Below are positions 2,612 through 52,485 of a stretch of 64,000 nucleotides of DNA, piece after piece. Positions within the stretch are counted from its first letter, which is position 1; each line of letters opens with the position of its first letter. This stretch comes from Halosimplex salinum. GTDB taxonomy: Archaea; Halobacteriota; Halobacteria; Halobacteriales; Haloarculaceae. Made by a program: the position numbers and the translations under genes. The stretch is taken from NCBI RefSeq assembly GCF_003730195.1, contig NZ_QWGG01000004.1, positions 186,001 to 250,000 on the forward strand, in the 5' to 3' direction. A model generated the notes under the pieces. It was given only the letters and a program-made list of their open reading frames with translations. It made no database searches and had not been told where the DNA came from.

Positions 2612-3135
2612 GCGGTGGCGCGCGCTGGCTCGCGTTTCATCGCGAGCCGTAGTCGTGCGAGGTCTTCGTGAACGGAGTGAACGAAGGCTCGGAAGACGAC
2701 CGAAGGGAGTCTTCCGGTGGACGAGTGAGCCGAAGGCGAACAAGTCGGCTGGGGAGGTGTGAGGCCGTCTGCGCTGCCGTGCGGAGCGGTCGTCGTTTCC
2801 TGGTGGACTGAAAGGGCGAGGCGCGCGTGGCGCGACTAGTGAGGGACCGTCGGTCCCTCATACCATGCGAACGGGCGGCTTCGCCGCCCGTGAGCAGACG
2901 CAGGGAGCGCCACGGCTGGCCGAACGGCGACCGGCAGGAGCCGTGAGGCGCTCGCGTTCAGTTCAGTCGTCTGAGCAGGCACTATCGGAGTGAGCGAAGC
3001 GAACGGAGATATCCTGCTCAGCGACCGCGAGCGGGCCGAGGGCTTTCGTCGCCTGCGGTCTCCTGCGGTCGAGCCAACTCAGAGCGAGCGGATCGAGGGT
3101 TTACAACGCATGCTGTCGACTGGGGCTGAACCACC
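2612..3135 (+). repeat. Dispersed structured non-coding element, copy A
   Basis: This is the longest copy of an element found five times in the window and it fills most of the 724-bp gap between divergent genes. In order it has: a hairpin GGCTCGCG/CGCGAGCC (2627-2648) inside a GC outer stem; an optional GGAAGAC/GTCTTCC hairpin (2691-2715); the invariant block TCGGCTGGGGAGGTGTGAGG (2745-2764); GGACTGAAAGGGCGAG (2805-2820); extra hairpins near 2850-2890; and a 9-bp stem CTGAGCAGG/CCTGCTCAG (2971-3021) enclosing conserved CTAT and ATAT. The 3' module occurs about twice. No frame in it looks protein-coding. Both boundaries are approximate. Confidence 0.8.
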
Positions 3136-14624: not shown

Positions 14625-14647
14625 GGACCCGACGAATTACCGACTGC

Positions 14648-15006
14648 TGTGGCGCGCGCTGGCTCGCGTTTCATCGCGAGCCGTAGTCGTGCGAGGGGCG
14701 AGTGAGCCGGAGGCGAACGAGTCGGCTGGGGAGGTGTGAGGCGGTCTGCGGTGCAGTTGCGGTGCGGTCTGCCGTGCTGTCCTGGCGGACTGAAAGGGCG
14801 AGGCGCGCTCGCGTTCAGTTTAGTCGCCTGACCGGGCCCTATCCGCGCGAGTGCGGGGCGGTGCCGTTGTCCGAGCGCGGATATCCCGGTCAGCGACCGC
14901 GAGAGCGAGGCCGACCGGAGGGAAGCCTCGACCGCGAACGGGGAGCGAAGCGACCGTGAGCGAGCGGGCCGAGGGCGTTCGTCGCCTGTCGTCTCCCGCG
15001 GTCGCG
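14648..15006 (+). repeat. Dispersed structured non-coding element, copy B
   Basis: A compact copy in the 492-bp gap between tandem genes. It has the 5' hairpin GGCTCGCG/CGCGAGCC with TTTCAT loop (14661-14682), the invariant block TCGGCTGGGGAGGTGTGAGG (14722-14741), GGACTGAAAGGGCGAG, and a stem CTGACCGGG/CCCGGTCAG (14828-14893) with conserved CTAT and ATAT at its inner ends. The optional GGAAGAC hairpin is absent. It differs from copies A and E in both strands of the 9-bp stem at once. The 3' end GAGCGAGCGGGCCGAGGG matches the other copies. Confidence 0.8.
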
Positions 15007-15116
15007 TTCGTCCGACTCTCCGATACGCCGTCAGGACCAGAGAGAGCCGATACACGAACACGCCACTATCGAACGCCTCACCAAACACTTTCGCCGATTC
15101 GGGCCGACCTACGCCC

Positions 15117-15764
15117 ATGAACTGCATCGCCCACCGTGGCTTCTGTGGCGTGAACCCCGAAAACACCGTCTCCGCCGTCGAGGACGCGGCACAGCGGGCC
15201 GACGGCGTCGAAGTCGACGTGCGGATCTGCGGGTCAGGCGAACTCGTGGTCTGCCACGACGAGACGGTCGACCGCACGACCGACGGGAGCGGTGCCGTGA
15301 GCGCGCACACCGCCGCGGAACTCGCCGAGCTGTCCGTCGAGGGGTCGGGGTTCGGTGTCCCGACCTTCGAGGAAGTCGTGGCCGTGATTCCCGAGGACGT
15401 GACGCTCCACGCCGAACTGAAAGAGCGCGGGACCGGTGAGGGAGTCGAGTCGATAGTCTCCGACGCGGCGTGTGAGACCGTGGTCTCCTCGTTCGACACG
15501 GACGCGCTCTCGGAGGTCGAGGACCTCCCGACCGCGCTCGTCCAGTGGGACGGTACGGATGCGGTGGAGCGGGCGACCGAACTGGGGTGTTCGGTGGTGA
15601 GCCTGAATCTCGACGCGTGGACCCCGTCGCTTGTGGATCGGGTGCAGGACGCGGGGATGGCGGCCAACGGCTGGACCGTGACGGAGGCGGATGAGACCGA
15701 ACGGCTCCGGGAACTGGGCGTCGACGGCGTCATCACCGACTTCCCCGACTGCTGTCCGTCCTGA
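15117..15764 (+). CDS. Glycerophosphodiester phosphodiesterase
   Basis: A 215-aa single-domain GDPD enzyme that cleaves glycerophosphodiesters to glycerol phosphate and an alcohol. The catalytic signature is complete: AHRGF (catalytic His), NPENTVSAVE (metal Glu), GVEVDVRI (Glu and Asp ligands) and VVCHDETVDRTTDG (second catalytic His). The C-terminal barrel strand NGWTVTEADE and GVDGVITDFPD end the TIM barrel normally. No signal peptide, so it is cytoplasmic. It lies between two oppositely oriented copies of the dispersed element (B upstream, C downstream), with its own promoter in the 110 bp after copy B. Confidence 0.93.
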   Translation: MNCIAHRGFCGVNPENTVSAVEDAAQRADGVEVDVRICGSGELVVCHDETVDRTTDGSGAVSAHTAAELAELSVEGSGFGVPTFEEVVAVIPEDVTLHAELKERGTGEGVESIVSDAACETVVSSFDTDALSEVEDLPTALVQWDGTDAVERATELGCSVVSLNLDAWTPSLVDRVQDAGMAANGWTVTEADETERLRELGVDGVITDFPDCCPS

Positions 15765-15782
15765 GTGTATCCGTTGTGTTAC

Positions 15783-16262
15783 AGCGGACTACGCCCGGCG
15801 ACGAAAGCCCTCGGCTCGCTCGCTAGCAGTCTCGACTACTGCAAACGACAGCAAGCGACGAACCCCCTCGGCTCGCTCGCTAGCAGTCTCGACTACTGCA
15901 AACGGCAGCAAGCGACGAACCCCCTCGGCTCGCTCGCGCGGTCTGTGCGGGATATCCTCGCTGCGCTCGGATAGGGCCCGCGCAGACCGCGCGACCGCGC
16001 CTCGCCGTTTCAGTCCACCGGAAGACTCACTCCGTTCGTCTTCCGAGCCCTGACTCGCTCCGCTCGTCAGGACGCCAGGGACCGCAACTGCACCGCAAAC
16101 CGCCTCACACCTCCCCAGCCGATTCACTCGGTCGCTCCGCTCCCTCGTTCATCCACCGGAAGACTCCCTCCGGTCGTCTTCCGAGCCTTCGCTCGTTTCA
16201 CTCGCGAAGACCTCGCGCGGCTACGGCTCGCGATGAAACGCGAGCCAGCGCGCGCCACCGCA
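15783..16262 (-). repeat. Dispersed structured non-coding element, copy C (reverse)
   Basis: An inverted copy filling most of the gap between the GDPD and SDR genes. Read on the minus strand it starts with the GGCTCGCG/CGCGAGCC hairpin (16225-16246), an optional GGAAGAC/GTCTTCC hairpin near 16158-16182, the invariant 20-nt block (16103-16122 reversed), a second GGAAGAC/GTCTTCC hairpin (16020-16044), GGACTGAAA, and a stem of 11 bp (15941-15951 with 15977-15987) with a single C-A mismatch on this strand, enclosing CTAT and ATAT. The 3' module is repeated about three times with a 57-bp period. Confidence 0.8.
15811..15937. repeat. 57-bp tandem repeat inside copy C
   Basis: Two full 57-bp units start at TCGG 15811 and 15868, and a partial third starts at 15925. 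The units are nearly identical (CGACAG versus CGGCAG is one difference). Each unit contains the element's 3'-end module (CCTCGGCTCGCTCGCTAGC on the plus strand). The period is a multiple of three, which leaves an open frame across it, but that frame has no start context or protein character. Confidence 0.85.
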
Positions 16263-16337
16263 CTTTCACTCGTTGGACCCGTCTTCACGACCCCCTACCG
16301 CCCCATCTTTAACCGCGTTCCACCCGAACCCACGTCC

Positions 16338-23227: not shown

Positions 23228-23541
23228 TGTGGCGCGCGCTGTCGCGGCCTCTGTGCCGCGACGAAGTCGCGCGAGGTCTTCGCGAGTGAAAGGAGCGAAG
23301 GCTCGGAAGACGACCGGAGGGAGTCTTCAGGTGGATGAGCGAGGGAACGGAGTGGCCGAGTGAATCGGCTGGGGAGGCGTGAGGCTATCTGCAGTGCTGT
23401 GCCGGGTGTAGTAGCTCCTGGCGGACTGAAAGGGCGAGTGCGAGGTGCGACCGCAGGGAGCACCTCGAGATGCGAACGGCGAACGGAGTGAGCCGTGAGC
23501 GAGCGGGTCGGGGGGTTTCAGCGCGTGCTGTCGTCTGCGGT
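23228..23541 (+). repeat. Dispersed structured non-coding element, copy D
   Basis: The shortest copy, in the convergent 455-bp gap. Its 5' hairpin is GTCGCGGC/GCCGCGAC (23241-23262): both arms differ from the GGCTCGCG/CGCGAGCC version of copies A-C and still pair perfectly. The loop is CTCTGT. The outer stem (CGCGC with GCGCG), the GGAAGAC/GTCTTC hairpin and the core block (23365-23384, one change) are present, as is GGACTGAAAGGGCGAG. The 9-bp CTGA-type stem with CTAT/ATAT is missing. The 3' GAGCGAGCGGG module is present. Confidence 0.78.
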
Positions 23542-23627
23542 CACTGCGTCTCGTTGCGAGCGAGTCGAGGCCACCACCACTCGAATTCGACTGCGACTGT
23601 TATCGCTCGACCGCGGATCGACAGTCG

Positions 23628-51944: not shown

Positions 51945-52027
51945 CTGTTGCCCGCAGTACCGACGGCCATACCTTACAACTACCTCTTCCCGGCCAGGGA
52001 CGCGTGTCGGTCCCGCGAAAATCAATC

Positions 52028-52467
52028 GTGGCGCGCGCTGGAGCGCGCTTTCATGCGCGCGACGAAGTCGTGCGAGGGATGAGTAACGCAGGAGCGAAGC
52101 GACGAGTAACGCAATCGGCTGGGGAGGTGTGTGGCCGTCTGCGGTGGCGTGCGGTGCTGTCTTCCGTGCTGCCCCTGGTGGACTGAAAGGGCGAGGCGCG
52201 CGTGGCGCGACCGTAGGGAGCGCCACGGCTAGCCGAACGGCGACCGACGGGAGCCGTGAGGCGCGCTCGCGTTCAGTTCAGTCGCCTGAGCGGCCGCTAT
52301 ACGCGCGAGTGCGGCGTAGTGCGGTTGTTCGAGCGCGGATATGCCGCTCAGTGACCGCGAGAGCGAGGCGCGAGCGAAGCGAGCGCCTCGACATGTGAAC
52401 GGGGAGCGAAGCGACCCGTGAGCGAGCGGGCCGAGGGCTTTCAGCGCTTGCTACCGACGGCAGTCGA
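52028..52467 (+). repeat. Dispersed structured non-coding element, copy E
   Basis: It lies between fni and a NUDIX gene, in the opposite orientation to both. The 5' hairpin is GCGCGC/GCGCGC with a TTTCAT loop (52043-52060), again a different but fully paired stem. The core block is at 52115-52134 (GTGG for GAGG), and GGACTGAAAGGGCGAG is present. The 9-bp stem is CTGAGCGGC/GCCGCTCAG (52286-52294 with 52343-52351), with both arms changed relative to copies A and B, and CTAT/ATAT kept. The 3' GAGCGAGCGGGCCGAGGG module is near 52420. The optional GGAAGAC hairpin is absent. Confidence 0.8.
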
Positions 52468-52485
52468 AACCGGTCCTCGGATTCG

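Follow-up and report, generated by a model that had tools for sequence, protein, structure and literature searches.

Here, we show that the CTAT/ATAT hairpin at 2971–3021 forms the apical portion of the 3′ domain in a dispersed repeat 250–500 bases long. Comparison of its copies suggests that the repeat is probably a BOX-like modular intergenic element that concentrates at gene 3′ ends (mostly in convergent gaps), turns over at a high rate, and would fold as a single strand and exchange its parts by recombination. The whole 64-kb stretch analysed, hereafter the window, contains five copies, A–E. Its host genome (5.07 Mb, 28 contigs) was compared with those of congeners (Halosimplex) and other relatives; L-numbers denote individual loci, G-numbers the genomes compared, and C21 a 644 kb contig of the host genome. 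Covariance models R2 and R1 describe the 5′ domain and the CTAT domain, respectively.

2616–3130, + strand: copy A of the element, made up of 5′ domain, cassette, core, additional hairpins, CTAT domain and 57-bp 3′ units
2663–2719, + strand: insertion cassette of two hairpins within A, TCTTCG..GAAGGCTC-GGAAGAC..GTCTTCC-GGTG, with identical boundaries in about ten copies
2810–3047, + strand: 3′-domain slot of A, with closing helix GAAAG 2810–2814 / CTTTC 3043–3047, from covariation and R1
2826–2949, + strand: additional hairpin module, inserted within A's slot
2971–3021, + strand: CTAT/ATAT hairpin, the original finding, from sequence and covariance model
14641–15010, + strand: element copy B, without the GGAAGAC cassette; R1 domain at 14787–14916
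15011–15740, + strand: glycerophosphodiester-phosphodiesterase-like gene, flanked by B (+) and C (−), whose orientation is reversed in G001 and H. aquaticum
15741–16263, − strand: element copy C, with two GGAAGAC cassettes; R1 domain at 15917–16016 and tandem 57-bp units at 15798–15937
23228–23570, + strand: element copy D, which has the cassette and has lost the CTAT hairpin by deletion at a GCGAG repeat
52021–52475, + strand: element copy E, with R2 at 52029–52127, R1 at 52250–52372 and extra hairpin modules on either side of the CTAT hairpin

On inspection of the sequence, the 51 bases of the hairpin at 2971–3021 read CTGAGCAGG-CAC-TATC...GATA-T-CCTGCTCAG. The outer stem (2971–2979/3013–3021) is 9 bp long, with CTAT at 2982–2985 and ATAT at 3009–3012. 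TATC and GATA are base-paired with each other (2983–2986/3008–3011), and the true internal loop is CNC against T, nothing more. The first-pass annotation had placed this stem in A, B, C and E and noted its absence in D, and R1 agrees: it scores 91 bits in A, 89 in C, 79 in B and 59 in E, with no match in D. Also as reported, GGAAGAC/GTCTTCC pairs occur in A (2691/2709), twice in C (16020/16038 and 16158/16176) and in D (23305, with a mismatched GTCTTCA arm), and in neither B nor E. The 57-bp unit is the 3′ end of the element and is present in one to about seven tandem copies. Each such unit at 15798–15937 and at L052 carries a CTTTC that might serve as an alternative partner in closing the GAAAG helix. 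Elsewhere in the window, a partial 5′-domain-like match (1342–1386, − strand; 25.8 bits) lies inside a called gene region and is possibly due to chance.

The element is abundant and confined to haloarchaea among named matches. With copy A as BLAST query, more than 50 loci are found in its own genome, which has at least 69 matches to R2 and at least 60 to R1; related copies are counted separately, so counts overstate independent events. A minimal element copy matches 65 of 97 genomes of relatives, and over half of the Halobacteriales genomes sampled carry the element. When the 5′-domain pattern was run against 84,980 species, every named match was haloarchaeal (Halosimplex, Halorussus, Halococcus, Halomicrobium, Haloarchaeobius and haloarchaeal MAGs). 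Nine plasmid records match the element, none of them annotated there; phage records yield no match, and carriage by phage was therefore rejected. No family among the Rfam 15 covariance models matches, which rules out a known Rfam RNA, and the open literature searched on haloarchaeal repeats held nothing relevant, leaving the element undescribed there. The 5′ domain, the CTAT domain and an alternative hairpin, type II, are found separately or combined across genera, and minimum R2/R1 counts are uncoupled among genomes (65/1 in G063, 47/1 in G060, 33/3 in G009, 0/7 in G008, 0/5 in G013, 32/45 in G029). The fixed core proposed in the first-pass annotation does not hold, given that the 5′ and 3′ domains are found apart in other genera. 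At L167 in G063, a genome with hardly any CTAT domains, a 5′ domain is followed by an inverted second one, giving a long palindrome.

In both domains, pairing is shown by the aligned sequences to be conserved through compensatory change. The 5′ domain consists of a helix around a variable hairpin, then a paired motif, GAG-NAN-CGCA...GAG-NAN-CGCA, then TCGGYTGGGGAGG; it is followed by the 3′ slot, closed by the GAAAG/CTTTC helix. The two halves of the motif pair antiparallel with a constant central A.A, and across 38 copies the variable positions are paired in 76 of 76 cases (34.7 on average in shuffles, at most 50). For the 3′ domain, aligned in 63 copies, 95.5% of cells are paired and 24 of 38 base pairs have changed on both sides. 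Covarying cells there number 125, against 25 in shuffles and 7–18 with partners slid by 1–3 columns, and all pairing measures for this domain exceed all 500 shuffles and all slid controls. Compensatory covariation beyond both kinds of control is what would be expected of a functional structured RNA. As to which strand folds, G.T cells outnumber A.C cells by 58 to 19 in the 3′ domain and by 54 to 0 in the outer 5′ helix, an excess pointing to the + strand. Folding energy also favors the + strand, by a mean of 31 kcal/mol and in 43 of 43 copies; however, dinucleotide shuffles give both strands similar z-scores, and we rejected this mostly compositional asymmetry as proof of an RNA strand.

Placement relative to genes, called with a codon-model gene caller, is far from uniform. 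Among 45 copies of the host genome, 35 lie downstream of a gene in the same orientation, mostly 20–80 nt from its stop codon (median about 40 nt). Convergent gaps hold 23 of the 45, compared with 62 of 403 C21 gaps of ≥50 bp (Fisher p=2e-7), and divergent gaps hold 2 of the 45, compared with 115 of the same 403 (Fisher p=1e-4). On C21, 14 of 16 copies follow a same-orientation gene, 9 in convergent gaps and 5 in co-directional gaps in sense. About 22% of copies are antisense to the upstream gene, and sense read-through is not obligatory. A terminator was also considered and set aside: TTTT tracts lie between stop and element in 4 of 31 copies versus 8% of genes, which is uninformative. Sites turn over between species. 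H. aquaticum retains the genes on either side of A and of D but has neither copy, several congeners lack E, which G003 possesses, and at the phosphodiesterase-like gene G001 and H. aquaticum lack both B and C (L151, L140). For sites A and D, the intergenic DNA is too diverged from H. aquaticum for a comparison of target-site duplications.

It could be argued that the element is a non-autonomous, MITE-like DNA transposon moved in trans by a host transposase, with hairpins that serve that transposase and a modular look that results from nested insertions and deletions. We regard this as rather doubtful. The element is dispersed in many copies, congeners have empty sites, the insertion cassettes have fixed ends, and the enrichment in convergent gaps is like that of pneumococcal IS and repeats (PMC3049150), all of which would fit. 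However, terminal inverted repeats are not evident in the copies inspected, the copy-rich genomes G005, G009, G029, G060, G063 and G080 lack Y1 (HUH) transposase, and class-wide covariation of internal helices exceeds what transposase ends need.

Alternatively, each copy may be a 3′-UTR or termination/stability RNA acting in cis on the transcript of the upstream gene. The C21 copies behind same-orientation genes, their short distance from the stop codon, and the pairing kept in copies with very different stems speak for this. Against it are the high site turnover between species and the co-directional gaps of the whole host-genome set, where 12 sense copies stand against 8 antisense; moreover, avoidance of promoters accounts for much of the placement. 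As a full account of the element we consider it an unlikely explanation, to about the same degree as a transposon. The element may nevertheless act in cis at mRNA 3′ ends.

The BOX-like reading draws its modular component from the slot in the 3′ domain. The CTAT hairpin (type I), scored by covariance model, is intact in about 47 of 53 fetched 5′-domain copies, a sample partly chosen by similarity to copy A. Contig C21, taken whole, provides an unbiased sample: of its 16 5′-domains, 12 carry type I, 3 carry type II and 1 carries neither. Type II, AAG-NAN-CGCA...GAG-NAN-CGCA, occupies the GAAAG/CTTTC-closed slot that otherwise holds type I, and was checked by eye because R1 scores some examples weakly (L206 43 bits, L183 47 bits). 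Its two variable positions pair in 38 of 38 examples, 36 of which share one triplet pair. Of 97 relatives, 44 have exact type II motifs and none has a match to a reversed control pattern. Within the GACTGAAAGGGCGAG...CGAGGGCTTTC frame of type I, type II is seen at L183, L206 (=L032), L212 and L227 of the host genome and at L237 and L238 of H. aquaticum; in L212 and L238 the slot frame is GACTGAAAGGGGC...GGGGCTTTC. This exchange within one genome, together with the uncoupled domain counts between genomes, indicates that the slot and its occupants are real modules and that the CTAT hairpin is interchangeable. The proposal that the element is built from recurring interchangeable modules is borne out by the four host-genome loci, where a different hairpin fills the slot. 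Stand-alone type II domains (GGGTGGGAATGAAAGGGGC..GGGGCTTTC) also exist, at L228–L231 and on C21 as three head-to-head pairs about 34 bp apart (72374/72408, 522028/522062, 559748/559782).

The GGAAGAC hairpin, by comparison, had been taken for a module proper to the element and turns out to belong to an insertion cassette that is also found outside it. This hairpin comes second in the cassette, TC-[hairpin]-GGCTC-[hairpin]-GGTG, whose insertion points are of two kinds, GCGAGG/GAYGAG and CTGGYG/GACTG. The cassette is missing from most element copies, has identical ends where present, and lies inside an unrelated repeat family as well (...AAAAACATGG^...^GTGAAAAAGG). Its exact GGAAG form is found in 18 copies in the host genome and 0–2 in congeners, and the same frame also holds other stems. 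A second abundant repeat, CATCTTTTTC..CAAAAACATGGGTGAAAAAGG..GGATGCTCAGTACAG, is often directly 5′ of the element and is itself invaded by the two-hairpin cassette (L054, L055, L058, L020, L030 and others; C21:386813, C21:511871).

Copy D had been read as an optional form without the CTAT hairpin, but is better explained by a deletion between two GCGAG repeats. Its junction, GGGCGAG|TGCGAGGTGC (the second part begins TGCGAGG), and that of L038, GGGCGAG|CGGGCCGAGG, both fall at GCGAG, a direct repeat that flanks the hairpin base on both sides. Two further hairpin-less copies are joined at GAGCGGGC (L046) and at GAGCG (L057), and L028 is shortened too, with a less clear junction. To judge from their junctions, these five look like deletions, mostly at short direct repeats, and not like an alternative form. 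In D, the closing helix is largely preserved, as are the two hairpins found next to the CTAT hairpin in B and E. Cataloguing modules in this and related genomes thus upheld an interchangeable slot hairpin and fixed module boundaries, but not D as an optional form. That all missing modules merely reflect random decay from one full-length ancestor, as the losses in D, L038, L046, L057 and L028 might suggest, is improbable. Type II fills the same slot with a paired motif of its own, and the cassette, with its identical ends, is absent from most copies and present in another family.

Copying by reverse transcriptase as an RNA-mediated, SINE-like retro-element would suit the RNA-like structure and high copy number, but is extremely improbable, and retrotransposition was rejected because RVT_1 (PF00078) matched in none of 59 haloarchaeal genomes, with control genomes positive. 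Y1/HUH transposase was likewise rejected as a general spreading route, being missing from several copy-rich genomes; therefore, neither retro- nor RAYT-type spreading explains the element.

A modular build is not unusual among intergenic repeats, BIMEs being one example. The first-pass annotation had called such a build unusual for a mobile repeat, but pneumococcal BOX elements are modular too, built of boxA, boxB and boxC modules (PMC3049150). BOX (S. pneumoniae and S. suis; boxA-boxB(n)-boxC, with boxD/E/F) and the present element are both dispersed and intergenic, with optional and tandem modules, lone modules, predicted stem-loops if transcribed, and over-representation between convergent genes (PMC3049150). 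Unlike BOX, the element is haloarchaeal, GC-rich and longer, covaries strongly among copies, swaps alternative hairpin domains inside a closed helix, and has cassettes in common with another repeat family. Given the GC-rich haloarchaeal consensus, homology to boxA, boxB or boxC is unlikely. With RAYT-associated BIME/REP the element shares a mosaic of palindromic intergenic repeats, but its architecture is unlike paired REP units and several of its copy-rich hosts lack Y1 (HUH) transposase. Like MITEs, it is short, non-coding, structured and present in many copies with empty sites; unlike them, it is not AT-rich, and the copies inspected show no evident terminal inverted repeats. Dispersed structured RNA families in Rfam have a similar covarying multi-helix structure, and differ in that the element has no Rfam 15 match. 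It may thus be described as an archaeal, heavily structured counterpart to bacterial BOX/BIME repeats.

If the BOX-like reading is correct, the + strand would function single-stranded and folded, in the simplest case as RNA produced by read-through of the gene upstream, while copies would turn over and swap modules by homologous recombination and gene conversion. The CTAT hairpin would be lost through deletion between GCGAG/GAGCG repeats at its base. A more ambitious reading, which we offer only tentatively, is that the haloarchaea share, across the class, an RNA family whose evolution proceeds through the swapping of domains. Its conserved 5′ domain would be joined to one of at least two alternative helical domains in the GAAAG/CTTTC slot. 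Each genome would have dozens of copies, and every copy would stay functional at its site as a cis-acting 3′ element through compensatory change and recombination. A single genome shows intermediate stages of an RNA-like exchange of domains: the slot holds type I or type II or has been emptied by deletion, and cassettes are present or absent at the same points. Because these states coexist, helix grafting and module exchange are open to study with dozens of paralogues.

Finally, recombination has probably homogenised the copies. The nearest neighbor of a host-genome 3′ domain is another host-genome copy in 28 of 32 cases (expected 15.5), a similarity consistent with recent spread or gene conversion. 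Recombination between inverted copies would be expected to flip the gene that lies between B (+) and C (−), as is seen here, although the order of events is inferred. Bounding a gene that is inverted between congeners, the copies are candidate agents of rearrangement. At site A in G002 (L148), two direct copies flank about 2 kb of extra DNA where the host genome has a single copy, an arrangement suggesting that recombination between the direct copies led to a loss or a gain.
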